Assembly: GCF_000172155.1 (NCBI RefSeq) | Contig: NZ_ABIZ01000001.1 | Span: 2,637,105-2,701,104 of the forward strand | Direction of reading: 5' to 3' | Source: Verrucomicrobium spinosum DSM 4136 = JCM 18804 | Lineage (GTDB): Bacteria; Verrucomicrobiota; Verrucomicrobiia; Verrucomicrobiales; Verrucomicrobiaceae | DNA: 64,000 nt | Part shown: positions 44,078 through 60,991 of the stretch, one piece after another | Numbering within the stretch: the stretch's first letter is position 1 | How the letters are laid out: each line of letters starts with the position of its first letter | Made by a program: the position numbers and the translations under genes | The notes under the pieces: generated by a model | What the model saw: only the letters and a program-made list of their open reading frames with translations | The model's database searches: none | What the model was told of the DNA's origin: nothing

Positions 44078-47000
44078 GTCATTCAGGGAGGCTCGCTTAT
44101 TGACTGCTGCTGGTGATGCCAACCGCTCTGGCAATGTGTCGAGTGTCGTGTTGTCGCCATTGCCTTTCGGCTTACTGACTGCTGCTGGATGTTGTCCGGC
44201 TTGGTCATCGCCACCTCCAGGCGGTCGCCATTGCCTTTCGGCTTACTGACTGCTGCTGGTATCTTCAAGAAGGAGACGTGATCTCCTTCCGTACGTCGCC
44301 ATTGCCTTTCGGCTTACTGACTGCTGCTGGGGTCTATGAGATAACTTTTTTCGACTGCTTCTGCGAGGTCGCCATTGCCTTTCGGCTTACTGACTGCTGC
44401 TGGTTGACGGGTGCGGCCCCAAACGACTCACCATCGCGGAGGTCGCCATTGCCTTTCGGCTTACTGACTGCTGCTGGGCACGATTAAGTCCTTTGAGATC
44501 CGGTCACTGCAAAACGTCGCCATTGCCTTTCGGCTTACTGACTGCTGCTGGGACGACGCCACACCTGCGGACATCGCCACTGGCCTGGTCGCCATTGCCT
44601 TTCGGCTTACTGACTGCTGCTGGCCGTAGACAGCCTGGTAAACAGCCAGCTCCTCAATCCGTCGCCATTGCCTTTCGGCTTACTGACTGCTGCTGGGGGT
44701 AAGGGGCATCCGTCTGCGGACCTCCAACATCAAGTCGCCATTGCCTTTCGGCTTACTGACTGCTGCTGGGGATCTGGAGGCTACGGGGCCGGATGAGGCG
44801 GTGTCTGGTCGCCATTGCCTTTCGGCTTACTGACTGCTGCTGGACGACGGCCACGGTCTGCGCCTCGCCCTGGTCGGCATGGTCGCCATTGCCTTTCGGC
44901 TTACTGACTGCTGCTGGCGACGAACTCGCCTTTCCACTCCCAGCCGCCAGCGCTGTCGCCATTGCCTTTCGGCTTACTGACTGCTGCTGGAGCTGGACAA
45001 GTCGGGTGCATTGCAGTCTCGCGCTGAGTCGCCATTGCCTTTCGGCTTACTGACTGCTGCTGGTGCTGACTGCCCTCAAGATGACCCCAGAGCAGGCCGA
45101 GTCGCCATTGCCTTTCGGCTTACTGACTGCTGCTGGCCAGTGATATGGATGGGGAGTCGGTCCGTGGGTTCTGTGTCGCCATTGCCTTTCGGCTTACTGA
45201 CTGCTGCTGGTCCGCCTGCAACTCCGGGGGAGCCGTCCAGGAAAACCGTCGCCATTGCCTTTCGGCTTACTGACTGCTGCTGGTCCTTCATGTTGATTCC
45301 CGGAACCACCAGGGAGCCGCTCTGTCGCCATTGCCTTTCGGCTTACTGACTGCTGCTGGGTGTGCGACGTCGTCCGGTACTGGTCCCGCTTCGTTCCGTC
45401 GCCATTGCCTTTCGGCTTACTGACTGCTGCTGGAAGAACCGTTGGCTGGTTCGCTGCGGACCTTGACGCTGTCGCCATTGCCTTTCGGCTTACTGACTGC
45501 TGCTGGCGCTCATCAAAAACAAAACCTACTTCCTTGGGAACGTCGCCATTGCCTTTCGGCTTACTGACTGCTGCTGGACTGAACACGACCTGAAACACAC
45601 CGAACCCCTGCCATGGTCGCCATTGCCTTTCGGCTTACTGACTGCTGCTGGTCACTCGAAGGGGCCATGGCAGGTGCCGGCACCGGAGTCGCCATTGCCT
45701 TTCGGCTTACTGACTGCTGCTGGAACGGGCGGAGGGTTCTTTGCGCTTAGCCCTGAACTTGTCGCCATTGCCTTTCGGCTTACTGACTGCTGCTGGGTGG
45801 TTCACCAGCAGGTCATGGATCGCCATCGCATCGTCGCCATTGCCTTTCGGCTTACTGACTGCTGCTGGTGGAAGGGTAATACGCAAGAAGCCACTAAATA
45901 CAGTCGTCGCCATTGCCTTTCGGCTTACTGACTGCTGCTGGTGATCGGGTGGCAGTGACAAAATTTGCAAAGTTTGCGTCGCCATTGCCTTTCGGCTTAC
46001 TGACTGCTGCTGGGATATGTACTATGCCCCCAACAACATCGTGCCTCTGGTCGCCATTGCCTTTCGGCTTACTGACTGCTGCTGGCGAGTGGGGCGGCAA
46101 GTTCATCGACCTCAGCTTCGTGTCGCCATTGCCTTTCGGCTTACTGACTGCTGCTGGAATGAGCCCTCCGCCTTGATACCGCCCTGGTTGAACCGCGTCG
46201 CCATTGCCTTTCGGCTTACTGACTGCTGCTGGGATCTTCGTCGATATCGCCTTTGCCAAGCGTCGGGCCGTCGCCATTGCCTTTCGGCTTACTGACTGCT
46301 GCTGGACACCCGAATGGCGGGTTTGGCAGCACGAAATGATCTCTGTCGCCATTGCCTTTCGGCTTACTGACTGCTGCTGGGATCGAGACGGCGGAGGCTC
46401 GATACGCGGGCAAGCCGTCGCCATTGCCTTTCGGCTTACTGACTGCTGCTGGCAGCGAGAACCTTCCCGCCAGCCTTGTTCCATTTGAGGTCGCCATTGC
46501 CTTTCGGCTTACTGACTGCTGCTGGTCAATGAGACGGTGGTCGTCAGACTTCACCACCGACCTGTCGCCATTGCCTTTCGGCTTACTGACTGCTGCTGGC
46601 CGCCGACCTCAACGCGGTGTATGATGTTGAGATCGCATTGTCGCCATTGCCTTTCGGCTTACTGACTGCTGCTGGTGCCGTGAGGGCCAGCGTGAACACA
46701 GCCCCGACGGGCGGTCGCCATTGCCTTTCGGCTTACTGACTGCTGCTGGGGCATGGAGAAATACCAGGCCGGATGCCGCATCCTAAAGTCGCCATTGCCT
46801 TTCGGCTTACTGACTGCTGCTGGCTCCTTGAACTTTCCTTGAACCCACTCCGTGGAGACGGTCGCCATTGCCTTTCGGCTTACTGACTGCTGCTGGGATC
46901 CTCGCGACGCCGTCGCCTTGGTCGCCGCCGCGTCGCCATTGCCTTTCGGCTTACTGACTGCTGCTGGTGGAGCAAGCCTTCAAGGACTTGACCGGCGAAG

Positions 47001-48291
47001 GCGGGTCGCCATTGCCTTTCGGCTTACTGACTGCTGCTGGGATATCGATTCACGACGCCACCTCTTGCCCCGGGCGTGTCGCCATTGCCTTTCGGCTTAC
47101 TGACTGCTGCTGGAGGCGCTCGGCAGATAGGACATCACCTCATCGTCGGTGTCGCCATTGCCTTTCGGCTTACTGACTGCTGCTGGAGGCATTCTCCAAA
47201 ACACGTTCCCCGCCACGCACAGCGTCGCCATTGCCTTTCGGCTTACTGACTGCTGCTGGCAAGGTCCTTCGAAAGTCACCATCGACGCGGGTCGCGTCGC
47301 CATTGCCTTTCGGCTTACTGACTGCTGCTGGCTTGGCCTTTACCTAGGCGGCGAGTACCGACCGCACGGTCGCCATTGCCTTTCGGCTTACTGACTGCTG
47401 CTGGGCGCCTTGGTCAGGCCCAACTTGTGAGCAGCCCCAGCGTCGCCATTGCCTTTCGGCTTACTGACTGCTGCTGGGAAGGTCAAGATCACCGATCCCT
47501 ACTACCAGGGAAGTGTCGCCATTGCCTTTCGGCTTACTGACTGCTGCTGGATTTCTGGCAACTCTTGGCATGGAGTCACCACCCGCGTCGCCATTGCCTT
47601 TCGGCTTACTGACTGCTGCTGGCAACCTTGGCCACGCAAAGCGGTCGAGCCACAAGGCCAAGTCGCCATTGCCTTTCGGCTTACTGACTGCTGCTGGGAC
47701 CTGGTGATCGTGGCGGCGAGGCCGTCGGTCGGGAAGAGTCGCCATTGCCTTTCGGCTTACTGACTGCTGCTGGTCCGCGCCAGTGAGCAGTAAGTTTTGC
47801 ACGGCACACTCGTCGCCATTGCCTTTCGGCTTACTGACTGCTGCTGGCCGCAAGCGCCACGTTCACGAATTTCGCCCAGTGCCTGAGTCGCCATTGCCTT
47901 TCGGCTTACTGACTGCTGCTGGACATGGGCACTCCATATGGCACGGTGATCGACCGCATCGTCGCCATTGCCTTTCGGCTTACTGACTGCTGCTGGGCTC
48001 AGGCGGAATACTTGACCCACCTGGCTGAGCGCGAGTCGCCATTGCCTTTCGGCTTACTGACTGCTGCTGGATCATGAAGACGACCCTCGATTACCCCGAG
48101 GAGCTCGAGTCGCCATTGCCTTTCGGCTTACTGACTGCTGCTGGCCCTGATGGGAGAGGGCTACTATGGCGGCTTGAGTTTCGTCGCCATTGCCTTTCGG
48201 CTTACTGACTGCTGCTGGCATACCCGGCGGCAAGATCGACTGGCACGAAGCTATTGTCGCCATTGCCTTTCGGCTTACTGACTGCTGCTGG
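44078..48291 (-). CRISPR. CRISPR array, 57 intact 36-nt repeats plus one degenerate terminal repeat
   Basis: The repeat on the + strand begins GTCGCCATTGCC and ends TGACTGCTGCTGG; the intact copies start at 44153, 44224, 44295 and so on to 48256 and show no substitutions by eye. Spacers are 35-40 nt. At 44078-44113 the repeat is degenerate: its last 19 bases are conserved (one change), its first 17 are not. This marks the leader-distal end and puts the leader to the right (48292 on), with transcription on the - strand. In that sense the repeat ends AATGGCGAC, giving an 8-nt crRNA handle, and contains a small GCC-GAAA-GGC stem with a GNRA loop. It lies downstream of, and in line with, the Cmr operon. 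Frames inside the array (for example PLPFGLLTAAG) are repeat artefacts. Confidence 0.98.
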
Positions 48292-48747
48292 AGGTAACGC
48301 CTAGGAGCTTGAGTGTCAATGGTTCCGGTAGCAGTTTGCGAGAGGGGAGGCAAACTCCATGTGGAGAGACACTGCGGGAGCGCTTGATTTGGGCTAACTC
48401 CCACAGTCTCAGCACGCGAGCGCCCCCGGCACTTTGGGCGGCACGTGAGCGCTCGCAGATGTCGGCAGATCGCAGGGGTTTGCCTGGGCAGGGGGGGGGC
48501 GGCCCCCTCCACCTCCACCCCCTCGCTGCCATCAGCCGCAACTCCGCAGGAGGAAGAAGGCGATGACGAGCAGGATGGCGATCCCGCATCCGGCGTCGCC
48601 ACCGCCTCCGCTGCTGTGGGGGCGATGGACGACGACGTGTTCTCCACGGCGGGCATGAATGTGTCGGACGCGACGGGACATGAGACATTCTCCTCGTGGG
48701 AGGCCGAGCGGCGAACGTGAGGATGTCCCAGGATCTCCATGGAAGCC
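48292..48747 (-). promoter_or_regulatory. Putative array leader region
   Basis: The 456 bases between the last repeat and the NE0113 gene hold no convincing gene. They should contain the leader and promoter of the array if transcription is leftward. The region is GC-rich, with a run of nine G at 48491-48499, so it lacks the AT-rich look of many leaders. A frame opening at 48797 overlaps the array and is rejected. Confidence 0.45.
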
Positions 48748-49887
48748 TCACCCCACCCGGGGCGGAACGTCACGAACGGTGTCACGATGGATGTCAAACC
48801 CGATACGACTGCGCGCCGGTGCCAGAAACGGGATGCAGCTTGCGACGTTGTTTTTCTTCAGCAAGGTGCGCAACTCGCTGAGACTGCGAGTGATGTCCTC
48901 TTTGGCAGCTTTCCCGGCGATGTACCGGGATGTCTTGCGATGATGCGGGTACTGCTGTTGCCATTGGCGGACGAATGCCAGGTAGGCTTCGGCGGCATCG
49001 ACCACGTCTTCAAACATGGCCTGCCCTGCCAGCGCCTGCTCATAAAGAAAGCTGGCCACCACCAGGCAGCGGCCCACCAGAAGGATCGGTTTACCCTGAA
49101 CGGAGAGGATGCCGTTCGCGGCGTCCAGGGTGACGGCTGGGCTGCCCTGGAGCGGGCGCTCTGCCCGGGCGTAACAATCTACCAGCCCGGCAAAGGTGCG
49201 GCGCGGTTCGTTGAGTTCCTCAAACTTGTTGCGCAGGGGCACAAACGGCAGGTCTGCCAGTTCCACCACGGCGTCGCCAGGGTCGGCAGGTGCAGGCGGT
49301 CCATTGAAAGGCCGGAACTCCAGGATGGGCCCGGGCTGGCCCGGGTAGTAGAACCCCCGGATGAATTCAAAAGGCTCACTGACGAGGACGTGGGTGACGC
49401 GGTCCGTCTCCTTCCCCAGAAGGCTCATAGCGCCGTAGAGCAGCGCTCCCATCGTTTTGCGTCCGCCTGCGATGCTGGCGATGACCTGATGGTCCTGGGC
49501 GTCGCAGTAAGGCGCCAGCGTTTGGACGATGAAGTTCGCTGCTGCATCATTCTGAGCATGGGTGCGCAAGTCGTCGGCCTTCTGGCGCACGCCGGTGGCG
49601 GCGTCCGGCAGGTCGATGACGCGGGGGCTGAGTTGAAGCCGGAGGTTCTCTTTGGGCAGGCGGGCTCCGGCAAAGATGTCTTCCCTCAACTTGGCCCATA
49701 CCGTCTGACCGCCCCAGGCTTCCAGCGGGGTGAGCAGCTGTTGCTGAATGTCCTGCTCACCCCTGGAGGTGGTGATGACGACCACTTCATCCGGTACGAC
49801 AGGTGGGCTCTCCTGCGCAAGAGCCCAGATCGTCTCCGTGAGGATGGCCGGAGACATGCCACTAACAGCGACGAGGATGGTGGGCAT
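48748..49887 (-). CDS. CRISPR-associated NE0113-family protein (CARF-like)
   Basis: 379 residues. It begins MPTILVAVSGMSPAILTET, with VIASIAGGRKTMGALLYGAM near residues 135-155, the layout of the NE0113 family (Cas_NE0113, TIGR02584), which has a CARF-type Rossmann fold that would bind cyclic oligoadenylate. The C-terminal third (LVGRCLVVASFLYEQALAGQ) is helical with no nuclease motif I can place, so it could be an effector, a regulator or a ring nuclease. It is the last cas-type gene before the array, 112 bases after the CARF-RelE gene. Confidence 0.85.
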   Translation of the reverse strand: MPTILVAVSGMSPAILTETIWALAQESPPVVPDEVVVITTSRGEQDIQQQLLTPLEAWGGQTVWAKLREDIFAGARLPKENLRLQLSPRVIDLPDAATGVRQKADDLRTHAQNDAAANFIVQTLAPYCDAQDHQVIASIAGGRKTMGALLYGAMSLLGKETDRVTHVLVSEPFEFIRGFYYPGQPGPILEFRPFNGPPAPADPGDAVVELADLPFVPLRNKFEELNEPRRTFAGLVDCYARAERPLQGSPAVTLDAANGILSVQGKPILLVGRCLVVASFLYEQALAGQAMFEDVVDAAEAYLAFVRQWQQQYPHHRKTSRYIAGKAAKEDITRSLSELRTLLKKNNVASCIPFLAPARSRIGFDIHRDTVRDVPPRVG

Positions 49888-49999: not shown

Positions 50000-51151
50000 T
50001 CAGACCTTCACGATTTGGTAGCCTGAAAGGTCTGAGGGGACCGGTTGGATCACAATGGAGGTGACTTCCTTCTCGTAGTCATCGTGATCCCTCCATATCT
50101 TGCGCACAAGGATCTCATCGTCGCGATGTTGCCAGACAATTCGATTGCCCGATCCCATTTTGGCCAGGCGCCAAGGATGGGATCGGCCTGGGGTGCCAGT
50201 AAGGTCATGGTTGATTCCTTTGTAGTCAGGATCTATCGCTGCTTTATTCCTGATTTGGCCAAGTTGTGTAGAGAGATGGGTCGAGTCGCGGCGAAACTCG
50301 GCCATGGCTTCGGGCGACAGCCGCACTGGCAGTTGATCAAGACGGATATATTGACCCAATTCGTTTAGTTCGACGAGATCATCCACCCGCGTGAAAAATG
50401 ATGGGAAGCGTTCAACCACGCTGCGTTGTTCCGCGCTGAGATCTTTCATCTGGGCTCCATTGCCGATCTTGCGAGCGGTGGATGATATCGTGGCGCGATC
50501 ATCTTCAGAAAAATGAACGGGGGCTGGGGCAATTTCCTGGAGAACCTGACTATCCTCGTGCAGGTAGAGAGAGGGTAAGCCGTGAAAAGATGCCGCGATG
50601 TGACCCAAGGCGACCATAGACTTGTATCCTCCGATTGGAGCGAAGGCGGTGGTATCAGGATGCCCGTCGCGTAGCAGTCGGCTGATTTGTCCGATAAAGG
50701 CACCGCTTGCCATAGCCAGGCCTCCTCTCTGCGTGGGATCAAAAGGCACACTCAGCTCTTGGCGATGGACCTGCACACCGAGCTGGGTCTCAAGTGCAGT
50801 TTCCTGAATGGTTGCCGAAAGCCGCCCACCCAACGTGGGCGTATGAATGAGGTGGACCAGGGCCCCCTGGGCAAGGGCGTTGCGTTGTTTGGCGATGGCG
50901 TATAAAATAGAAAACTCCGCTGATATTTCCTCGGGTGGGAGTTGCTGGGCTTGCGATGTCTGATGTGCTGCCCAAGTCAGACACGAGTTGAAGACGGCCT
51001 CCTCACTCAATGTTGGATCCTTGGGCACCGGGTTTTGTTGTCCGTTATCGAATTTGATGGGACTGTCCTCTTTGCGGAATAATTTTCCGAAGTAGTTGCG
51101 TGGTGCGAGAGCCGATATCCCGGCGGTGAGGACGAGTGTGGAAAATGGCAT
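50000..51151 (-). CDS. CARF-domain protein with C-terminal RelE/ParE-like domain (Cami1-type candidate)
   Basis: 383 residues from MPFSTLVLTAGISAL; the frame opens at 51202. The N-terminal half is CARF-like and resembles the APE2256/TIGR02619 CRISPR-associated group: strand-loop TLVLTAGISAL at residues 5-15, and the nucleotide-contact segment FAPIGGYKSMVALGHIAA at 170-187. The C-terminal part (about 285-364) fits the RelE/ParE ribonuclease fold: YKGINHDLTGTPGRSHPWRL, then GNRIVWQHRDDEILVRKIWR and DHDDYE. RelE toxins cut mRNA in the ribosome. CARF-RelE fusions (Cami1) are known in type III systems and are activated by cyclic oligoadenylate. Here it follows cmr1 after 127 bases. The toxin assignment comes from motif reading only. 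Confidence 0.72.
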   Translation of the reverse strand: MPFSTLVLTAGISALAPRNYFGKLFRKEDSPIKFDNGQQNPVPKDPTLSEEAVFNSCLTWAAHQTSQAQQLPPEEISAEFSILYAIAKQRNALAQGALVHLIHTPTLGGRLSATIQETALETQLGVQVHRQELSVPFDPTQRGGLAMASGAFIGQISRLLRDGHPDTTAFAPIGGYKSMVALGHIAASFHGLPSLYLHEDSQVLQEIAPAPVHFSEDDRATISSTARKIGNGAQMKDLSAEQRSVVERFPSFFTRVDDLVELNELGQYIRLDQLPVRLSPEAMAEFRRDSTHLSTQLGQIRNKAAIDPDYKGINHDLTGTPGRSHPWRLAKMGSGNRIVWQHRDDEILVRKIWRDHDDYEKEVTSIVIQPVPSDLSGYQIVKV

Positions 51152-51278: not shown

Positions 51279-52142
51279 TCAGCCTGGGAATGCTTCCCGA
51301 AGTACGGTGCCGATCTTTTTGCCCCGTTCAGCCAGCAGATTGATGACGGACTCCAGGTCGCCCGCGCGGTTTCCTGTCACGGCAGAACGATCGTCCCATA
51401 TCGCTGCGATATGACAGGCTCCTTCAAGCGCCACGACGCGCAGGCGCAGCGGTGAGGTTTTCCGACCGCCATGGACATTCCCCAGCGGATGATTGAGGCG
51501 CGCCAGGTCATCCTCCCCCCTGTAGTCATCGCGACCTCCAAGAGTGTCTGAAATGATCCGCCGGGCATCCTCAGCTTTTGTAAAAGGGGTGGGTGAGATG
51601 CCAAATCGCAACGGAGCTCCTTGAAGCAGGTCGCCACAGCGCTGACGGAACTCCGCAAGCGAGCTTGGTGGGGTAAGCCCGGAGTGGGGCTCTGTGAGCG
51701 GCTCGAACCGGAAGCTTCCTGCGCCACGGGTGCTGCGCAATCCCAAGGTGCCGAGCAGGAGCCAGGCTTCCACGCAGCGATCTAGCTGCTTCGCCAGCCG
51801 GTCATCGAGGGGGAGGTGCCGGAGGCTGAGATGCAGATCGCAGGAGGCACCGGGCTTGAAGCAGGCTTTTGAGCTGGCCTGTCCTCCCGATTTGTGGGGC
51901 AAGGTGGCCATGCTTCCTGGTTGACCGGTGATGTGGTTCACGCGTACCGCGAGCTTGCTGGCTTGGGCACCGCCGTGCACTGCGCCAAACAGGGCTTTCT
52001 CATCCTGATAGCTGCCGCCAATCGCCCGGAACCACCAATGGAGCTGGCCGCGGATGGAAGGGGGGCGAATCTCAGGCACATCCTCGTAACTGCCTTTGCT
52101 AAAAAGAGGTGTGATGAAGGTGAGGCGATAACTCTTCGTCAT
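51279..52142 (-). CDS. cmr1: Type III-B RAMP protein Cmr1
   Basis: 287 residues. N-terminus YRLTFITPLFSKGSYEDVPE, then EIRPPSIRGQLHWWFRAI, the hallmark Cmr1 motif. The glycine-rich segment RSTRGAGSFRF is near residue 145. Cmr1 caps the effector at the 3' end of the crRNA and helps target recognition. The end is shorter than usual for the family (often 300-450 residues), so a second RAMP domain may be reduced. It overlaps cmr6 by 4 bases. Confidence 0.93.
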   Translation of the reverse strand: MTKSYRLTFITPLFSKGSYEDVPEIRPPSIRGQLHWWFRAIGGSYQDEKALFGAVHGGAQASKLAVRVNHITGQPGSMATLPHKSGGQASSKACFKPGASCDLHLSLRHLPLDDRLAKQLDRCVEAWLLLGTLGLRSTRGAGSFRFEPLTEPHSGLTPPSSLAEFRQRCGDLLQGAPLRFGISPTPFTKAEDARRIISDTLGGRDDYRGEDDLARLNHPLGNVHGGRKTSPLRLRVVALEGACHIAAIWDDRSAVTGNRAGDLESVINLLAERGKKIGTVLREAFPG

Positions 52143-53527
52143 GGCAGGGGGGGCAGGTTGAGCTTGCTGCGCAGGCTTTCGATGGGCTGGGCGATCTCTG
52201 GCTTTTTCTTTTTCCAGGTTTTCCAGCGCTCCCGTTTTTCCTTGTGGCTGGAGAGCAGGCGGATGAATGCCTTCTGTTCGATCTCCGGCTTGGAGCCAAG
52301 TTCTTTTCCAAAGAGGGCGAACTGCTCGTCCGTCAACCGGAGCAGAGTCTCGGCAGCGAGATCCTCCGGGGAGAGACTGGCCTGGCGTTCCGCTTCTGCC
52401 TGCCGCCGGGCGGCTTCCTCTGCGCTGGCCCTGGCTGCAGCTTCGGAGGCGGTCCGCTCCTTCAATTCCAGGGCTTCGATGTCAGCGAGCACATCGGGCC
52501 GCAGCGAGAACCAACCGTAACCAGCGGCGGTTTTGGCCCCCAATCCGCGAACAGTGAGCGCTGACTCCAGCCAGCGCTGAGCGTGCTTGAGGAGGTGGGA
52601 ATCGGTGCTGACGCCGCTGAGCACCAGGCAGAAAGCGAACTGGGCTCCCACCTCAACCGCGGGGAAGGAATTCGGCTGGGGATTCTCCTTGGAAAGGTCC
52701 TCCATCCTCCCGGAACGGTAGTACTCAGGGGTGTGGACGTTGGTGAGATCCACCACCATGCGGGCCTCGTTAAGCGGATAGGCGGGAAGAAACGACACCG
52801 CTCCCTTGAGATCCAACGAGCGATCCCCAAGCAGGTGCCTGAAGGGGTGCAGATCACCCTGATGCTTGGCTTCATGCTTGTAGTCACTGTCTGCGGTGCC
52901 GAACACGGACCGGAAAGTCTCAAACAGCGCTGCTTGCTGCTCCCCAGTGGTTTCCTTTATCTCCTGGAGGGCGGCGTGGCGGCAGACGCCCTTGACCGCA
53001 GAGCCGGGAATGAAGGGGAGGCCAAAAAGCCGGTCCAGGCAGATGCCTGCGTTTGGAACAAGGCTGTCCGCCAGGTTGATGGCCAGACGCCCCTCTAGCT
53101 GGCCCACGATCACAGAGCTATTTTCTGGGTGGGCCTGGCGAAAGAGTGCAATGAACCGCCGGGTATGGCGGGACCTGAGGGTGGTGAGTTCCCGGTCGTC
53201 CCACTTCACACGAGACAAGCCAGAGGCCATCTCTGCCTCTGCCAGGTAGCGGTCACGGTTCTTGGGCTCCACATTTCTCCCTCCGGCTTTGCGGCGTCTC
53301 TCGTCTGCTTCTCTGGAGAGAAGGGCGCTGGCTCCGTCAGCAATGCGCATGAAGCTCCAGCGGGAGGCCTCGTCCCATTTGATCTCCCGACCTTGTTCAT
53401 CCTGGGCAATAGGCCAGTGTTTGTGAAACACAAACTTGTCCAGGAGCAGACTCCGATTTTCCACCCTCTCTGCGAGAGGGCCGATGAGGGCTGCAACATC
53501 CCCGGGCATTGGAATGGCCGGATTCAC
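52139..53527 (-). CDS. cmr6: Type III-B RAMP protein Cmr6
   Basis: 462 residues from a GTG at 53527. This start follows an AGGAGG site and overlaps the cmr5 stop as GTGA; the upstream frame to 53578 is rejected. RAMP features: LFGLPFIPGSAVKGVCRHAA and VRGLGAKTAAGYGWFSLRPD, the glycine-rich loop. The C-terminal 120 residues form an unusual helical, coiled-coil-like extension (ASEAAARASAEEAARRQAEA) not seen in short Cmr6 proteins. It overlaps cmr1 by 4 bases. Confidence 0.92.
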   Translation of the reverse strand: MNPAIPMPGDVAALIGPLAERVENRSLLLDKFVFHKHWPIAQDEQGREIKWDEASRWSFMRIADGASALLSREADERRRKAGGRNVEPKNRDRYLAEAEMASGLSRVKWDDRELTTLRSRHTRRFIALFRQAHPENSSVIVGQLEGRLAINLADSLVPNAGICLDRLFGLPFIPGSAVKGVCRHAALQEIKETTGEQQAALFETFRSVFGTADSDYKHEAKHQGDLHPFRHLLGDRSLDLKGAVSFLPAYPLNEARMVVDLTNVHTPEYYRSGRMEDLSKENPQPNSFPAVEVGAQFAFCLVLSGVSTDSHLLKHAQRWLESALTVRGLGAKTAAGYGWFSLRPDVLADIEALELKERTASEAAARASAEEAARRQAEAERQASLSPEDLAAETLLRLTDEQFALFGKELGSKPEIEQKAFIRLLSSHKEKRERWKTWKKKKPEIAQPIESLRSKLNLPPLP

Positions 53528-53901
53528 CGCGCCCCCTCCTTGTCTTTCTTGACGAAGCGCCGGGCATAGGTCAGCCATGCCATGGTCTCCGTGGTGGCCT
53601 GTTTGAGCACTTCGCTAGGTGTGTCTGGAGCTGTCAGGTGTTCCAGTAGAGCCCGGCGATCCTTGATCTTCGCTGGTACAATCGCAACGTGCTCATCTGC
53701 GAGATGCACTGCGATGGCGTCAAACACCTTTGGCCATCCCTCTTTTTCTGAAAACGAATAGGCCGCTGTGGCCAGAAGTCCGTGATTCTGGATCAATGAC
53801 GGGATCTTTTTGATTACTTCGCCTCCTTTGTCTCCCCCGATGGGGCCTTGGGCGGCGAATTTAAGCACATTGCGGGCGCGGATTTGTTCCAGGTTCTGCA
53901 T
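53524..53901 (-). CDS. cmr5: Type III-B small subunit Cmr5
   Basis: 125 residues from MQNLEQIRARNVLKFAAQGP; an upstream GGAGG supports this ATG, whereas the frame opens at 54066 inside cmr4. All-helical small subunit, with LIQNHGLLATAAYSFSEKEG in the usual central helices. Cmr5 subunits line the effector filament and support Cmr2-Cmr4 contact. It sits 20 bases after cmr4 and overlaps cmr6 by 4. Confidence 0.9.
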   Translation of the reverse strand: MQNLEQIRARNVLKFAAQGPIGGDKGGEVIKKIPSLIQNHGLLATAAYSFSEKEGWPKVFDAIAVHLADEHVAIVPAKIKDRRALLEHLTAPDTPSEVLKQATTETMAWLTYARRFVKKDKEGAR

Positions 53902-53921
53902 GTTCAGAGTCCTCCGTATGA

Positions 53922-54767
53922 TCAAGCGAGTTTGATGGTGCAGAAGCCCTGGCCTGTGGTGCCGTTGCCGCCGAATTGCACGAGCTGCTCGACTTCGAGC
54001 CGGGCGAAGGCCTCGTTCTCCCTGCTTTCCTGCCGCAGGGCGGTGATGGGCGCATACATCAAGCACTCTGAGGGGACCGTCTCTTCATTAAAGAGGCCTC
54101 CGTCATCAGCGGTGCCGGTGTTGTGGTCGATTCTGACGTGCTGGTTGATCTGGCAGGCATTAACTGCGAAGTGTGACAAATCGCCATCTGAGAGCAGTAC
54201 GAACCTTCCCACCGCACCTGCAAGGACAGCGTCTCCCAAAAGCGAGCTCAGTTTTGACTCCCATTCGTGGGGAAACTCCCCGGTGGACCGATAGCGGTAT
54301 TCCTCTAAAACGACGCCCTTTTCGCCCGCCCGGTCAATCACGAGCCTGGCACCGGCCAGGCAGGTCATTTCCTCGGGCGGTGCTGGGGTTTTTAGATCCC
54401 AACCGGCATCCCGCGCCAGACGGGAAAGCGTGAGCGGGGACACTGCGAGCGCGAATGCTCCTTTGGCTGAGCGGACAGGGAAGGCTACGAGCCTGGCTTC
54501 GCCAAAGCTGAGGTCTCCAGAACGGAAGAGATTATCGTCATTGCCGCCTTTGCCGAAAAGGCGTTCCACTTCAGCGAGAGGCAGGCCCGTGCCCGAGACG
54601 GGACGGCTGAAATGGTCCCTCAGCACGCCTTTGACAGAACTGCCAGGAATGATCGGGAAGCCCGTATGCCGCTCGCGTTGGACGGGCTGGTCAATGGCCC
54701 CGAGGCTTGCCCCTGCTCCTACATGCAGTGGGGTGCGGGTGAATAGGTAAAGGATCTTGGTGGTCAT
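53922..54767 (-). CDS. cmr4: Type III-B backbone RAMP and target-RNA nuclease Cmr4
   Basis: 281 residues. YLFTRTPLHVGAGASLGAID puts Asp at residue 26, the position known as the catalytic Asp of Pyrococcus Cmr4, so target RNA cleavage at 6-nt steps is likely active. FPIIPGSSVKGVLRDHF is the RAMP motif and VQFGGNGTTGQGFCTIKLA the C-terminal Gly-rich loop. It is present in several copies per complex. The distance to cmr3 is 87 bases, larger than elsewhere in the operon. Confidence 0.95.
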   Translation of the reverse strand: MTTKILYLFTRTPLHVGAGASLGAIDQPVQRERHTGFPIIPGSSVKGVLRDHFSRPVSGTGLPLAEVERLFGKGGNDDNLFRSGDLSFGEARLVAFPVRSAKGAFALAVSPLTLSRLARDAGWDLKTPAPPEEMTCLAGARLVIDRAGEKGVVLEEYRYRSTGEFPHEWESKLSSLLGDAVLAGAVGRFVLLSDGDLSHFAVNACQINQHVRIDHNTGTADDGGLFNEETVPSECLMYAPITALRQESRENEAFARLEVEQLVQFGGNGTTGQGFCTIKLA

Positions 54768-54854: not shown

Positions 54855-56204
54855 TCACGGTTGATGGAACTCCCATGTGCCGCACACGCCGAGGCCGAAG
54901 CCTTTTTCTCCCATGAGGGTGGAGCGGCGGCTGCGGATGGTGGTGGCGTCCCCCGCGCCGTGCCAGTTGAGGGCGGTGGCGAGTTTCCGGGCCTCCTCTG
55001 AGCCGACGCATTCGAAGTAATACACGGAGCCTGCCGGGACAGCCAGATGAGTGGACTTGGCGCCGCCCTTGGGGCGTTCCGCAGCCTCTTGGGGGAGGGC
55101 GTAGCCGGTGACGAAGACGGGTTTTCCTACAATGGCGGCGACGAGTCGAGCCTGGAGCGGCTTGCCTGACTGAATGCTGCGACGTTTCGCGGCATTCTTT
55201 CCCGGGCCGTCGAGCAACTGAACCTTCCCATCGTCCTCCGGACGCACCCAGTTGGGAATCCATCCTCCACAATGCTCAGCAATCTGCTTCTCGCTGTTGC
55301 TTTTGATATGGGGGAAGATGGCGGGAGCAAGCAGAACCCACTTGACGCGGTAGATGTCCCCAGAGTGGCTGAACCCTTCTGTCATGCCTTTGGGCAGGGG
55401 AAGCTGAGCCAGGGACTCTCGTTGTACCGTGCAGATACGTTGCTGGCCGCCGGCGACGATGGGGGTGTGGGTGCCACTGTTGGGGAACAACTCTGCAATC
55501 AGGTCCCGGCCGGGGTCTGCATTTTTACCTCCCCGTTCTCGGGCCTGGGCGAGTGTACCCAAGGTCCAGCCGTCTCGGAGGCGGAGGTAGGAGGCGGAGT
55601 AGAAGCTCTTGCCATCTTGGGTTCCGGTTTCCGGATCGATGCCGATGCCGTAGCTGAACTCTGTCTCAACAATGCTGTCATCCTGCTGGAAATGCCTGGC
55701 CCCGCCGTCTGGGGGGGCGTGATTTCTGAGGCTGGCCTCAATGGCGGCTCCGCTCCACCACTGAGCCGGGGTGGCCTTGCCCTCGCGTCCGGTGCTGACC
55801 ATGACCACCGGATACCGTAGGCAGGCTGGAAGGCTGGAGGGCGATTTTGACTCTGAAGAAGAGGCAAGGGGGACGTATGCCGGTCTGGTATCGTCCGTCC
55901 CGCCCGCATCCAGGGGACGGGGGAAGTGCCATTTGTTTCCCTCGTCTGTGTGCAGTACAGGGAAAGGTCCTGCGGTGAACAAGCTGCCGAATTTCCGGCT
56001 GGTTTCCCGCTTGTTCCCATCAAGGGGAACGTGCCAGTGGGGCTGTACCGCTTCCAGGTCTGCCCGGTGCAGAGCTGCGTGAAAGGCGGCGCTGATAACG
56101 GTGGGCAGGGGCCATGCCGCACCGTGACCGCTCAGAGAGCCGGACATGGGTCTCCCGTCTCTAAAGAAGAGCACGTCCGTGGGATGGAGGAGAAGGGTGT
56201 TCAT
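54855..56204 (-). CDS. cmr3: Type III-B protein Cmr3
   Basis: 449 residues. MNTLLLHPTDVLFFRDGRPM is the typical N-terminus; the Gly-rich end is MGEKGFGLGVCGTWEF. Cmr3 binds the crRNA 5' handle together with Cmr2. The ATG shares one base with the stop of cas10. After its UGA stop the same frame goes on for 27 codons to a TAA, which I treat as untranslated. Confidence 0.93.
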   Translation of the reverse strand: MNTLLLHPTDVLFFRDGRPMSGSLSGHGAAWPLPTVISAAFHAALHRADLEAVQPHWHVPLDGNKRETSRKFGSLFTAGPFPVLHTDEGNKWHFPRPLDAGGTDDTRPAYVPLASSSESKSPSSLPACLRYPVVMVSTGREGKATPAQWWSGAAIEASLRNHAPPDGGARHFQQDDSIVETEFSYGIGIDPETGTQDGKSFYSASYLRLRDGWTLGTLAQARERGGKNADPGRDLIAELFPNSGTHTPIVAGGQQRICTVQRESLAQLPLPKGMTEGFSHSGDIYRVKWVLLAPAIFPHIKSNSEKQIAEHCGGWIPNWVRPEDDGKVQLLDGPGKNAAKRRSIQSGKPLQARLVAAIVGKPVFVTGYALPQEAAERPKGGAKSTHLAVPAGSVYYFECVGSEEARKLATALNWHGAGDATTIRSRRSTLMGEKGFGLGVCGTWEFHQP

Positions 56205-58018
56205 CAGTCTGGGAGATTCGCGGTTGCGCGGGACGTGGAAGAATCAGTACGGGTGCGATGGGCGAATGCCACCGTGGTACAGAGGCCAATGACATCCGAG
56301 AGAAGCTGCTGTACTGCGGAGGGTTCCCTGGGCGCGCTTCCGTTTTTACGATCCTCTCCGGCGGTGTTCCACTGCTTGAGGATGGCGCTGAGGTAGCTTT
56401 TCAGGGTGGCTGAAAGGGGCGGGCTGGAAGAGGTATCCGGGTAGCTCTTGGCATGCCGGGCGATGGCAAACTCAAACTCGCGGTGGATGACTTCCTCCGC
56501 TTCAGCGACTGTGAAGGCGTCCAGGCTGGCTTGACTGCTCTGGGGCAGGCTCCGAGTGAGGCCCGTTTTCCGGGAGCGGTAGGGTTCAAGGAGTGCGCAA
56601 ACCCGATGGGGGAACCGGGAGGCGAGCGTCCCTTCCGTGAGGCAGGCGGCAATCTGTTCGCAGAGTTGCAACCCTTGTGAGTCCCATTGGGCACCCCACT
56701 CTGTGATTTCACCGGAACGCTTCATCAGCGTTACGGAAAAGGCCTTGCGTCCCACCACGTTTTTGGCCCGCTCTTCGGCCGTCCGGGCCGCTTGGATGAG
56801 ATCCTGAAGAGGAGTGTAAACGTGGGCGATGACGATCCCTGCGGAAGCATCCGGGCGTTCGCCATCCTGGTCTTGGAATTGAGCGGTGGAGGTCTGAAAC
56901 TCGCGGCGTAAATCGGCCGCGCAGATCAGCGCCTTGTCTGCCGGCACGAGGGCGAGCACATCATCGCCACCCGCGTAAATGAGGAACCCACGGTGTTGAT
57001 TGACAGTCTTCCTGGCCTTCTCCAGGGCAAAGGAACTCAATGCCTTGCTAAAGGCTTTCTGATGGCGGTGGAGGTCCAATGTGTCTGAAAGGCCTCTGCC
57101 GCTGATCCATTTACCGATGGCGTCTCCGTCGAACGCGATGGCGGCGATGTACGCACCTTCAGCGGGGGTGGCATCAATATTGCGTTCATCGTCCGATTCA
57201 TCGGTCCGTGCTGCGATGGCCAGAACCGAGGGAATGGGCTCTAAAGAATTCTTCGTCTCCCGGAGGTAAGCCAGATGCCAGACCCGCTTGATCAGGGTAA
57301 TGGCCCCGAAGGGGTCCGGGTTCTTGAACAAGCGTGCGCATTCCTCCCGCATGAGTTTTTTTGGCTCACGCAGAAGACGGATGTCATCGACGAGAGATTC
57401 CTCTTTGCCTGTCAGGCTGTCTTTTTCATGACCTACCTTCCATTTGCCCTCGGCCCATGCTGAAAATTCGCGAGTTTGCCGCACGCCGTTGAGGGAGCGA
57501 GCGTTGGATTCGTAGGCAGACTTGTAGGCAGCAGCGTCTGAAGTCCCTTCAACTAAAGTGACCTGCCAGGACACGGAGAAAAACCCCCTGGTTTGCTTGA
57601 AATAGGTCTGAGCGGCATCCGAAAGCGGTGGGCGTGGCAGGCAATATTCCCAAACGGATGTGGCAATGTTGTTCCATTCATCCTCGATCTTCTGCCTCGC
57701 CTCTCTGGCGAGGCTTTCCGCGCTGTCGGCGGAGGTTAGCACAATGAAGATGTTGGTGAGATTGGGCGTGCGAAGCTGTCTGCTCGTGGGGTGGGTCGCG
57801 TCCTTTCGATCAAAATCGGGAGCAAGAAGCGGTTGATTGTCTCCGCTGGGGAAGACGAGTTCAGCCTCTTTATGCAACAGGTGGCGGATGCCCGCTGCGG
57901 TGAGCCAGCTCAGCAGGTAACTGCCACTCCACAAGTCGCGCGTGGAACGGGCGGCTGCAATGAAGTCCTGTACCGGGCCGATTTGAAACTTTATCAAAGC
58001 TTGAGTGAATGCGGGCAT
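56204..58018 (-). CDS. cmr2: Cas10/Cmr2 without HD domain, GGDD cyclase intact
   Basis: 604 residues from MPAFTQALIKFQIGPVQDFI, followed by AARSTRDLWSGSYLLSWLT, the Cmr2 N-terminal motif; the frame opens at 58228 but that part is not coding-like. There is no HD nuclease domain before it, so single-stranded DNase activity of that type is not expected. AIAFDGDAIGKWISGRGL (about 294-311) and FLIYAGGDDVLALVPAD (GGDD at 350-353) form the cyclase palm that makes cyclic oligoadenylate when target RNA is bound. This fits the two CARF genes downstream. No four-Cys zinc motif is evident. First gene of the cmr operon. Confidence 0.94.
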   Translation of the reverse strand: MPAFTQALIKFQIGPVQDFIAAARSTRDLWSGSYLLSWLTAAGIRHLLHKEAELVFPSGDNQPLLAPDFDRKDATHPTSRQLRTPNLTNIFIVLTSADSAESLAREARQKIEDEWNNIATSVWEYCLPRPPLSDAAQTYFKQTRGFFSVSWQVTLVEGTSDAAAYKSAYESNARSLNGVRQTREFSAWAEGKWKVGHEKDSLTGKEESLVDDIRLLREPKKLMREECARLFKNPDPFGAITLIKRVWHLAYLRETKNSLEPIPSVLAIAARTDESDDERNIDATPAEGAYIAAIAFDGDAIGKWISGRGLSDTLDLHRHQKAFSKALSSFALEKARKTVNQHRGFLIYAGGDDVLALVPADKALICAADLRREFQTSTAQFQDQDGERPDASAGIVIAHVYTPLQDLIQAARTAEERAKNVVGRKAFSVTLMKRSGEITEWGAQWDSQGLQLCEQIAACLTEGTLASRFPHRVCALLEPYRSRKTGLTRSLPQSSQASLDAFTVAEAEEVIHREFEFAIARHAKSYPDTSSSPPLSATLKSYLSAILKQWNTAGEDRKNGSAPREPSAVQQLLSDVIGLCTTVAFAHRTRTDSSTSRATANLPD

Positions 58019-58236
58019 GGGGTTGAGTTGACAGGAGGTGAGGCGGAAAATGGAGAGTGCGCAAGGGAGGGACCCGGTATCGTGATTAATCCCCGGAAGA
58101 TTTGCGCTCAAGTGGCCGCACATTGCCAGCAATCGAGCAGGGCTGCCACTATCGGGACCTCCGGGGACATCCTGAAAAACTCCAACCCAAACGGGCCAGG
58201 AGCTGACAGGGGGCGGAGGCGCTTGCATTTCCCAGA

Positions 58237-58375: not shown

Positions 58376-60991
58376 TCAGTTCTTCCCTGTGCTCTCCGGC
58401 ATCAGCCGTGACAACAGGTGCTCGTACCGTTGCCGGTGGGGGTGTCCTTCTGGGAAAATCTGGCGGGCGGTGTCCACGGCATGCTGTGCGAGGGTGATTG
58501 CCTCCTGGGGGCGTCTGAGCTGCACGCAGAGACGGGCGTAGTTGTAGGAGGTCATGGCGGTGTCGGGATGGAGAGAGCCCAGCACCCGGATTTGAGCTTC
58601 CAGCGTGCTCCGGTAGAGGGGCTCCGCGAGATTGAACTCGCCTTTGTCCAAAAGCAGGTTGGCCAGGTTCTTTGCGCTGACCAGGGTGTCCTGGTGCTCA
58701 GGGCCGAGAATGCGCACCCGCCCTTCAAAAGAGGCCCGGTAGAGCGTTTCTGCTGCATTCACGTCCTGGCGATCCGCCAGGACGTTGGCCATGTTGTTCT
58801 TGCTGCTGAGGGTGTCGGGATGGTCCGGGCCGAGGATCTTTTCCCGCAACTGGAGGGTGTGCCGATAGAGAGGCTCAGCGGCACCCAGATCCCCCTTGCG
58901 ATAGTGCAAGGTGGCCAGGTTGTTCATGCTGGCGAGTGTCTCGGGATGCTCCGGACCATACAGGCTTTGGGACAGGGAGAGGAGACGTTCTGAGAGGGGC
59001 TGGGCTGAGGCAAAGCGCCCCAGCAGGCGGTGCAATGCTGAGAGCCAGCGCAGTGCGGCCAGGAGATTGGGCGAGGAAATACCCTCGTTGCGCTCGATGG
59101 CACGGAGCAGGGCATGCAGATGCGGCTCCAGCAATTGATAACGCTCTGTCCCGCCCACGACGCTCCGGATCTTCCAGCACTGGCGCAGGTAGGTGAGCAC
59201 CCAGTCTCTCCAGCGTTGATAAACAGCGCGCGGATCAAAGAGGGAATGCTGCTGGATGGGGTCGCGCCACTCCCACTGGAGGCGGGCGGCTTCTGCCAGG
59301 CCTACGCTGGTGAGGGTCCATGCCTTCTCTTTCGTCCCCGGTTCTGCTCCTGGCACCTCCTGTTCGGTGAGGAAGCCGCGTCGCATCAGATGCTGAAGGG
59401 GGGGCTCCACCTCGCTGGGACGTACTCCCAAGGCCGTGGCAATGGAAAGTGCGGGTGCCGGGGTGGGGGCGTACAGGGAGAGCGCGTACCACGCGGGAAG
59501 GGCCTCCGCATCCAGACCGTTGAAGGACTGGGCGTACTGGGCCAGAATCCATGGCACGTTCTTCTTCTCGGAGGCAATGGTTTCGAGGAAATCAATGCCG
59601 TCCCGGCGGAGGCGTGCCAGATACGAGGATGGAGCGATCTGTTCTGAGGCCAGGTGCTGGGCAGTGAGCTCCAGCATCAAAGGGTGAGAGCCCATGCGAC
59701 CGGCAATTTCCACCCAGACGGGATCGTTGAACTGTGGCAGCGAATGCGTGGGTGAGGGGGGGCTCGTCGCCCCTGGGGCGACAGCCTTTGCGGAAGCGCC
59801 GACGCTTGCCAGTTCTGGCTGCGCCACGGCGGGAGAGATGGTGGCATGGGGCTCTTTTCCCAAGCGAGAGCGATAGAGGCAGAATGCGCCATCCTCCAGC
59901 GACAGCGGATGGAGCGTCACCCTCGGGATGCCGGGTAAGGTAAAAGGCTCGAGGGCCTCCAGGACGAGGTGGGCGGGGCCAGCCAGTTGGAGCAGGCGCC
60001 CCAGATTTTCCGCGAACTCTGCGCCTTCAAGGATCAGGCACACGTCACGTCTGGAGAGGAGTTGTTTCACGGCCGCCTCGTGCTTGGTGTCAGGGATGTC
60101 CCCCAGACCAGCTTGGGTGAGGATGCCTGCGAGGGCGGAATAGTGCCCCTGCGCCTCGTGGAAATTGTAGCGGAAAATCCCTCCAGGGTAGGCACCGGGT
60201 GCATCGGGACCAGGGGCGATCTGTGCCAGCGAGGCGGCGATCAAGGAACTCTTGCCAATGCCCCGGCTTCCCGTGACGCAGACGCGAAAAGAGCTTTTCA
60301 GCGCCTGCTGAATGGACTCTTTTTCCAGCGTTCGGCCTACAAAGTTCGGCGCTTGTGGCGGTGCGTGCCACGGGGGTACGTTACGGGGGATCGGTGGTTT
60401 GGCGAAAAGTTCGGTGCCAGCCGTCAGCACCGGGAGCGGCGGTGCCTGCGGGCTGGCTTCCGCCGGAGGGGGAGGGGAGGGCGGTTCCTGTGCGAGATGC
60501 TGCCGCGTCTTGTCTATCCAATCCTTTAACCGACGAATGCTGGTGCGCAGGGCTTCCATGTCCTGCACGCGGATTTCGGCCCCATTGTGGCGCACCAGCC
60601 TTTCCTGGTGAGAGTGTTGAAGCGCCGCTGCCTCCTCCTGCTCTGGCGGGTGGGAGAGAAAAGGGAACTCCGCATCGCAAACCACGGCGAAGACGGTCTT
60701 GCCCAAGGATCGCGCCATCGCGTACTCAAGTTGCGCGTAGCTCCGGCGGGGTTCTGCGGTGGGGCGGTTGGCGGGCTCTGGTCCAAAGCAACTCCCCGCG
60801 AGATGAATCATCGCATCGCACTTGCTGATGTGATGTTCCATAAGGCTCCACGCCGCGGCCCACTGTGTGGGGTAGTTGTCCACATGGACTGGCGTGGCCT
60901 CCATCTGAAGAATCTCCGCCCGCACCAAGTTGACCGCTATGCCCAGGTCAGGACTTGCCGCGCTGATGTAGATCTCCGGTCGCCTTATCAC
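58376..60991 (-). CDS. DUF4062-NTPase-TPR protein (STAND/NLR-like)
   Basis: 871 residues, GTG start (60991). N-terminal DUF4062 domain: RRPEIYISAASPDLGIAVNL, and SYAQLEYAMARSLGKTVFAV. A Pro-rich linker (about 165-215) is followed by the NTPase: Walker A VCVTGSRGIGKSSLIAASLA and a Walker B-like VCLILEGAEF. A helical region follows, then four TPR repeats of about 42 residues of the kinesin-light-chain type (GPEHPETLASMNNLATLHYR; LGPDHPDTLSSKNNMANVLA). Proteins of this plan act as sensors with an N-terminal effector. It is directly upstream of the cas operon on the same strand, 357 bases from cas10. A defence role is inference. Confidence 0.85.
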   Translation of the reverse strand: MIRRPEIYISAASPDLGIAVNLVRAEILQMEATPVHVDNYPTQWAAAWSLMEHHISKCDAMIHLAGSCFGPEPANRPTAEPRRSYAQLEYAMARSLGKTVFAVVCDAEFPFLSHPPEQEEAAALQHSHQERLVRHNGAEIRVQDMEALRTSIRRLKDWIDKTRQHLAQEPPSPPPPAEASPQAPPLPVLTAGTELFAKPPIPRNVPPWHAPPQAPNFVGRTLEKESIQQALKSSFRVCVTGSRGIGKSSLIAASLAQIAPGPDAPGAYPGGIFRYNFHEAQGHYSALAGILTQAGLGDIPDTKHEAAVKQLLSRRDVCLILEGAEFAENLGRLLQLAGPAHLVLEALEPFTLPGIPRVTLHPLSLEDGAFCLYRSRLGKEPHATISPAVAQPELASVGASAKAVAPGATSPPSPTHSLPQFNDPVWVEIAGRMGSHPLMLELTAQHLASEQIAPSSYLARLRRDGIDFLETIASEKKNVPWILAQYAQSFNGLDAEALPAWYALSLYAPTPAPALSIATALGVRPSEVEPPLQHLMRRGFLTEQEVPGAEPGTKEKAWTLTSVGLAEAARLQWEWRDPIQQHSLFDPRAVYQRWRDWVLTYLRQCWKIRSVVGGTERYQLLEPHLHALLRAIERNEGISSPNLLAALRWLSALHRLLGRFASAQPLSERLLSLSQSLYGPEHPETLASMNNLATLHYRKGDLGAAEPLYRHTLQLREKILGPDHPDTLSSKNNMANVLADRQDVNAAETLYRASFEGRVRILGPEHQDTLVSAKNLANLLLDKGEFNLAEPLYRSTLEAQIRVLGSLHPDTAMTSYNYARLCVQLRRPQEAITLAQHAVDTARQIFPEGHPHRQRYEHLLSRLMPESTGKN

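Follow-up and report, generated by a model that had tools for sequence, protein, structure and literature searches.

A divergent CARF-RelE protein in a type III-B CRISPR operon of Verrucomicrobium spinosum is a probable Cami1-like effector

The window analyzed here is a stretch of 64,000 nucleotides from Verrucomicrobium spinosum. Its minus strand contains, at positions 50000-51151, an intact ORF of 383 amino acids that begins with ATG and whose product has the N-terminal sequence MPFSTLVLTAGIS. A TTG codon located 51 bases upstream could also serve as the start and would add 17 residues; as the ATG agrees with the start of the related protein L009, we consider it to be the start of the gene. 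The earlier note, written from the letters of the DNA, had proposed that this ORF encodes a fusion of a CARF domain and a RelE/ParE-type domain next to a type III-B operon. Both parts of the proposal were borne out: the protein matches the PADLOC profile PDLC01935, its C-terminal part is modelled as a RelE fold, and the adjacent ORFs match profiles for Cas10/Cmr2, Cmr1, Cmr3, Cmr4, Cmr5 and Cmr6. The features of the locus are the following:

44158..48300 (ends approximate), no strand assigned: CRISPR array with 57 exact copies of the repeat core, spaced 71-76 bases
48748..49887, minus: second CARF gene (Cas_NE0113 / TIGR02584, CARF5), 379 aa; TIGR02584 E 1.5e-95, PADLOC Csx1/CARF5 models
50000..51151, minus: CARF-wHTH-RelE candidate effector gene (P0001), 383 aa; PADLOC PDLC01935, Cami1 chains top for the full-length model
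50003..50329, minus: predicted RelE-fold domain, about residues 275-383, with H315, R337, H356 and Y359; domain model of residues 270-383 and VIA matches
50084..50086, minus: codon of H356, aligned in sequence with Cami1 H343 (alanine in 8PHJ)
50336..50512, minus: winged-helix part, about residues 214-272; secondary structure of the model, structural alignments with SSO1393, Sis0811 and Csa3 reaching residue 273
50513..51151, minus: CARF domain, about residues 1-213, with S13, E79 and GGYK at 174-177; Pfam Cas_APE2256, matches to Sis0811/SSO1393 and other CARF proteins
51279..52142, minus: cmr1; TIGR01894 E 1.8e-9, PADLOC Cmr1 E 1.3e-16
52139..53578, minus: cmr6; TIGR01898 E 2e-28
53524..54066, minus: cmr5; Pfam Cas_Cmr5 E 6.4e-11 over residues 80-173, the true start being probably further in
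53922..54767, minus: cmr4; TIGR02580 E 2.6e-49
54855..56204, minus: cmr3; Pfam Cas_Cmr3 E 1.1e-33, TIGR01888 scoring 33.1 bits, below its cut-off of 100.4
56204..58228, minus: cas10/cmr2; TIGR02577 E 3.9e-54, GGDD motif at ORF residue 420 by motif search

Read along the minus strand, the order of the operon is cas10, cmr3, cmr4, cmr5, cmr6, cmr1, the CARF-RelE gene and the second CARF gene, and the CRISPR array lies beyond the latter. The CARF-RelE gene is separated by 127 bases from cmr1, which precedes it, and by 112 bases from the second CARF gene, which follows it; all of them are on the same strand. The Cas10 ORF contains a single His-Asp pair, situated in a short N-terminal stretch ahead of the Cmr2_N match, and the Pfam, TIGR and PADLOC profile scans recovered no HD-nuclease family. 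Taking into account also the presence of the GGDD motif, signalling is probably the main output of this Cas10.

The product of the second CARF gene is the only match to the TIGR02584 family in the genome. The NCBI name of this family is ring nuclease Csm6, and PADLOC lists it under Csx1/CARF5. Its C-terminal part gave no match in the Pfam and TIGR profile scans, and a phmmer search for a solved relative returned none (best E 0.89, unrelated). The protein could be either a second effector or an off-switch. Homologues were found by phmmer (E 1e-3) in none of the 11 neighbourhood loci of CARF-RelE relatives (L001, L026-L035), and a conserved pairing of the two CARF genes therefore gains no support.

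We then analyzed the CARF-RelE protein with profiles. PDLC01935, which belongs to the PADLOC group CARF7--CARF_RelE and describes precisely this fused architecture, matches residues 3-365 over profile positions 2-353 of 369 (190 bits, E 2.2e-56, judged by E-value). The CARF-like N-terminus and the RelE/ParE-type C-terminal motifs read in the earlier note are both recovered: GGYKSMVALGHIAA, placed near residues 174-187, begins at residue 174, and GNRIVWQHRDD and HDDYE start at residues 335 and 356, respectively. Of the profile families that the note had named as a check, Pfam Cas_APE2256 (PF09651) matches residues 75-201 over its cut-off (E 2.3e-8) and TIGR02619, for the APE2256 CARF domain, remains just under its curated cut-off (36.0 versus 37.45 bits, E 5.8e-9); no Pfam RelE/ParE family matched either the whole protein or the C-terminal part alone, which gave weak unrelated hits only. 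The RelE assignment is therefore based on the fold prediction, on the profiles of PADLOC and on how the sequence aligns with Cami1. Profiles and predicted model together give a three-part architecture, in which a winged helix that was absent from the note's description lies between the CARF and the RelE parts. A winged helix is present in Cami1 as well.

For structure prediction, AlphaFold2 was run with an 11-row alignment (A3). The full-length model reached a pLDDT of 81.2 and a pTM of 0.57, and the model of residues 270-383 alone a pLDDT of 86.2 and a pTM of 0.82. When the full-length model was searched with Foldseek, four Cami1 chains came first (best E 3.0e-16), directly followed by the CARF ring nucleases Sis0811 and SSO1393. 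With VIA, the Cami1 chain 8phj_X aligned over 345 residues (Z 19.6; the rmsd of 15.1 reflects a domain arrangement that is not superposed); SSO1393 and Sis0811 (Z 19.5) tie with Cami1 but cover only the CARF and winged-helix parts, and matches to these and other CARF proteins support the CARF fold. In the model, the winged-helix region consists of helices at 216-229 and 240-248 and strands at 253-262. The structural alignments of SSO1393, Sis0811 and Csa3 extend across CARF and winged helix up to residue 273. For Csa3 (2wte_A) the alignment covers 191 residues within 3-273, with a Z of 12.0 and an rmsd of 7.5, as would be expected if the protein were a transcription regulator like Csa3, made of CARF and winged-helix parts and followed by a C-terminal part that has decayed. 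We consider this very improbable: the C-terminal 114 residues are predicted as a confident RelE fold that is recognisable across the branch to which the protein belongs, and SSO1393 and Sis0811 fit the CARF-wHTH part better than Csa3 does.

The C-terminal domain model shows the order strand-helix-helix-strand-strand-strand-helix-strand. The model speaks against a helical HTH-type domain in this place, so that neither of the two results by which the note would have seen its proposal refuted came about. A Foldseek search with the domain alone gave weak matches (best E 1.6e-3, none at or below 0.001), with HigB2, HP0894, Cami1, RelJK and YoeB at the top. VIA found Cami1 closest (Z 10.6, 102 residues, 3.1 A), before HigB2 (8.4), YoeB (7.9), Thermus thermophilus RelE (7.8) and ParE (6xrw, 7.4); judging by title, 48 of the 50 matches listed are Cami1, toxins or complexes of toxin and antitoxin, and the remaining two are HP0892, a hypothetical protein, and TrmO. 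As ParE lies within about one Z unit of HigB2, YoeB and RelE, the fold alone does not decide between a gyrase poison of the ParE type and an mRNA interferase. The former is nonetheless hardly to be expected here, since Cami1 is ahead by more than two Z units, a histidine occupies the place of the histidine mutated in Cami1, and ParE toxins are described, in the part of the source bearing on them, as being devoid of the catalytic residues of RNases (PMC11980606).

The comparison with Cami1 (PDB 8PHB and 8PHJ), a type III effector, can be extended to single residues. Domain order and fold are shared with the window protein. Direct similarity in sequence is low: phmmer with the single protein against the PDB gives an E of 0.12, and BLASTP aligns one 44-residue stretch with 34% identity. 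A profile built from an 18-row alignment finds Cami1 with an E of 2.5e-50 over profile positions 4-352, and a five-row profile of the protein's own branch reaches it with an E of 9.1e-17, over the CARF and winged-helix parts only. The Cami1 chains of 8PHJ, which are bound to the 70S ribosome and to cA4, carry at least two changes relative to those of 8PHB, S11A and H343A. In the sequence alignment the window protein has S13 and H356 at these two positions, so that both mutated residues are kept. From the alanine construct in 8PHJ we infer that H343 is catalytic. In the C-terminal alignment A5 (9 sequences), the histidine column holds a histidine in seven, Cami1 and the window protein included; the exceptions are L004, with a histidine one column off, and L009, with a lysine. 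The tyrosine at Y359 is invariant in A5. H315 and R337 show no variation in the 11-row A3 but do vary in A4 and A5, which cover the C-terminal part alone. In the CARF domain, the D/E position of the [TS]-[DE]-T motif is occupied by P105 (50837-50839, minus); Cami1 and all the other 17 A2 rows keep the D or E.

The CARF domain also contains S13, E79 and K177, the latter within GGYK. These residues are likely the counterparts of S12, E70 and K167 of the Synechocystis protein SyCsm6 (Sll7062), which resembles the window protein both in its CARF7-RelE pair and in these S/E/K residues; SyCsm6 belongs to a type III-D system of a cyanobacterium, whereas the window holds a type III-B system (PMC9676260). 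The available part of that report implicates the three residues in ring cleavage and ligand binding, and describes that SyCsm6, the only other tested relative to come up, broke down cA4, whereas no RNase activity was seen with total RNA as the in vitro substrate. As ribosomes are not mentioned in that account of the assay, the negative RNase result speaks neither for nor against ribosome-dependent cleavage. Were the window protein mainly a ring nuclease, with a weak or inactive RelE domain, it would destroy cyclic oligoadenylate and thereby shield the cell from the second CARF protein. The three CARF residues, the behaviour of SyCsm6 and the position of Sis0811 and SSO1393, next after Cami1 in Foldseek and tied with it in VIA, lend themselves to such a role. 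We regard it as unlikely, however, because the predicted RelE fold is of high confidence, H356 and Y359 have been kept despite the very divergent branch, and a RelE domain would be superfluous in a pure ring nuclease.

We analyzed as well to which branch of the CARF-RelE proteins the gene belongs. Alignment A2 comprised 17 of 22 located relatives plus the window protein; L013, L015, L018, L024 and L025 were left out by eye as near copies or apparently other fusions. A3 and A4 keep 11 of these 18 rows, seven with a doubtful C-terminal alignment having been dropped by eye. In L008 and L011 there is one stop inside the match, and the open stretch after the stop was used. PDLC01935 is the best profile for the window protein (190 bits) and for L008 (446), L009 (404), L010 (258) and L001 (128), the latter four all from Bacillota. 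The best PADLOC profile for Cami1 is a different one, PDLC01939 (residues 4-352), and hence the window protein is, by its sequence match, not a member of Cami1's own subfamily. L004, L005 and L006, from the phylum of the window, and L011, L012 and L020 prefer other CARF-RelE profiles. L004 ends at the end of its contig. In L005 and L006, about 100-120 extra residues, coiled coil by eye, follow the RelE part, and RAMP-like genes are present in their loci.

Two trees were built, one from 24 rows and the other from 16 of these, without L001 and seven others in order to lessen long-branch effects. Both separate the window protein and L008-L010 (with L001 where kept) from Cami1 and all the rest, with supports of 100/99 and 100/100. 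Constraining the window protein to group with Cami1 and L004-L006 is rejected with a p-AU of 8.6e-7, and with Cami1 alone with a p-AU of 8.4e-5, values that are indicative because the clades were named after the trees were seen. Long branches lead to the window protein and to Cami1. We are unsure of the exact position of the protein in the tree, given these long branches and the skewed composition. The earlier suggestion of a possibly divergent branch agrees with this rejection and with the different PADLOC subfamily. Taking into account that the subfamily is already represented in PADLOC, and that CARF-RelE proteins with other best profiles occur in the same phylum, the protein is less unusual than the note held.

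Among 57 genomes chosen as relatives of the window, only its own genome matches. The whole-genome search covered samples of two phyla, that of the window and Bacillota. At E <= 1e-5, PDLC01935 is matched in 4 of 387 sampled genomes of the window's phylum, its own being by far the best; at E <= 1e-10, in 1 of 384 of its class, namely its own, and in 18 of 398 Bacillota genomes. A pattern scan of genome contigs using this one protein as query, an approach limited to close relatives, returned one relative, from Exiguobacterium, a member of Bacillota. There was no tblastn match in plasmids at E 1e-3, and a pattern scan of viral contigs, subject to the same limit, gave none. Two of the other four branch members, L001 and L010 (in locus L027), belong to a III-B operon in which they come immediately after cmr6. 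For L009 (in L026) and L008 (in L028), no match to the Cas proteins of the window was found within the fetched stretch; inspection by eye shows repeats and Cas-like ORFs there. The window gene has best profile, branch and, for two of the four, the place after cmr6 in common with relatives of a different phylum. A transfer between phyla is likely.

Cami1 has been characterized as a dimer that, once activated by cA4, cuts mRNA at the ribosomal A site; Cami1-type effectors were counted in 135 of 1113 type III loci (PMC11229360, from the part available to us). Parts of two further reports attribute ring nuclease activity to Cami1 (PMC12409355, PMC12830947), and RelE-family effectors are named in the available part of the current classification (PMC12669027). 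Fold, residues and context lead us to expect that the window protein works in the same manner. We estimate at roughly 0.83 the probability that it serves the neighbouring type III-B system as a Cami1-like effector that cuts mRNA on ribosomes. Most likely it would be an mRNA interferase activated by cyclic oligoadenylate that also degrades its activator. According to this model, recognition of phage RNA through the crRNA would lead the GGDD palm of Cas10 to make cyclic oligoadenylate, most likely cA4, which a dimer of the window protein would bind in the CARF pocket, with K177 of GGYK. The winged-helix part would relay the conformational change to the RelE domains, and these would cleave mRNA in the ribosomal A site by means of H356, so that translation halts and the phage burst is limited. 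Slow breakage of the ring by the CARF domain, with S13 and E79, would finally switch the enzyme off. What the analysis itself establishes is the domain architecture, the predicted RelE fold, the occurrence of the key residues, the setting in the operon and the GGDD motif of Cas10; we infer activator, dimerisation, ribosome dependence, cleavage site and self-inactivation from Cami1 and SyCsm6.

Going by the title of the 2023 Science article of Mogila et al., Cami1 is reportedly captured by the ribosomal stalk. It is conceivable, if rather unlikely, that the PDLC01935 branch, whose sequences are very far from Cami1 and whose member in the window is without the acidic residue of the [TS]-[DE]-T motif, would use another ring size or get to the ribosome without the help of the stalk, in which case the term Cami1-type would embrace two CRISPR mRNA interferases of distinct mechanism. 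Considering the Cami1-like reading of the protein, the gene alone does not represent a new kind of system: the kind is already catalogued (CARF7--CARF_RelE in PADLOC), Cami1 has been studied in depth as its one example, and the window protein, though divergent, is an unremarkable representative of the CARF-RelE effectors. It indicates that CARF-RelE CRISPR effectors are present in this bacterial lineage through a branch distinct from that of Cami1. As a distant homologue, it can help to tell how far the mechanism of Cami1 holds generally with regard to the ligand, capture by the stalk, cleavage and hydrolysis of the ring.

Two further observations concern the surroundings of the operon and the rest of the genome. 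Upstream of cas10 and on the same strand, positions 58376-60991 (minus) encode an 871-aa protein with DUF4062, a STAND-like NTPase and TPR; PADLOC gave no match to it at E 0.1, and it may be a defence protein of its own or belong to the CRISPR locus. The sole Cas1 match in the genome is located about 3 Mb away (G000:C1:5678417-5679331, locus L038), within an ORF of 847 aa whose N-terminal part, behind a long low-complexity leader, is Cas4-like by eye.
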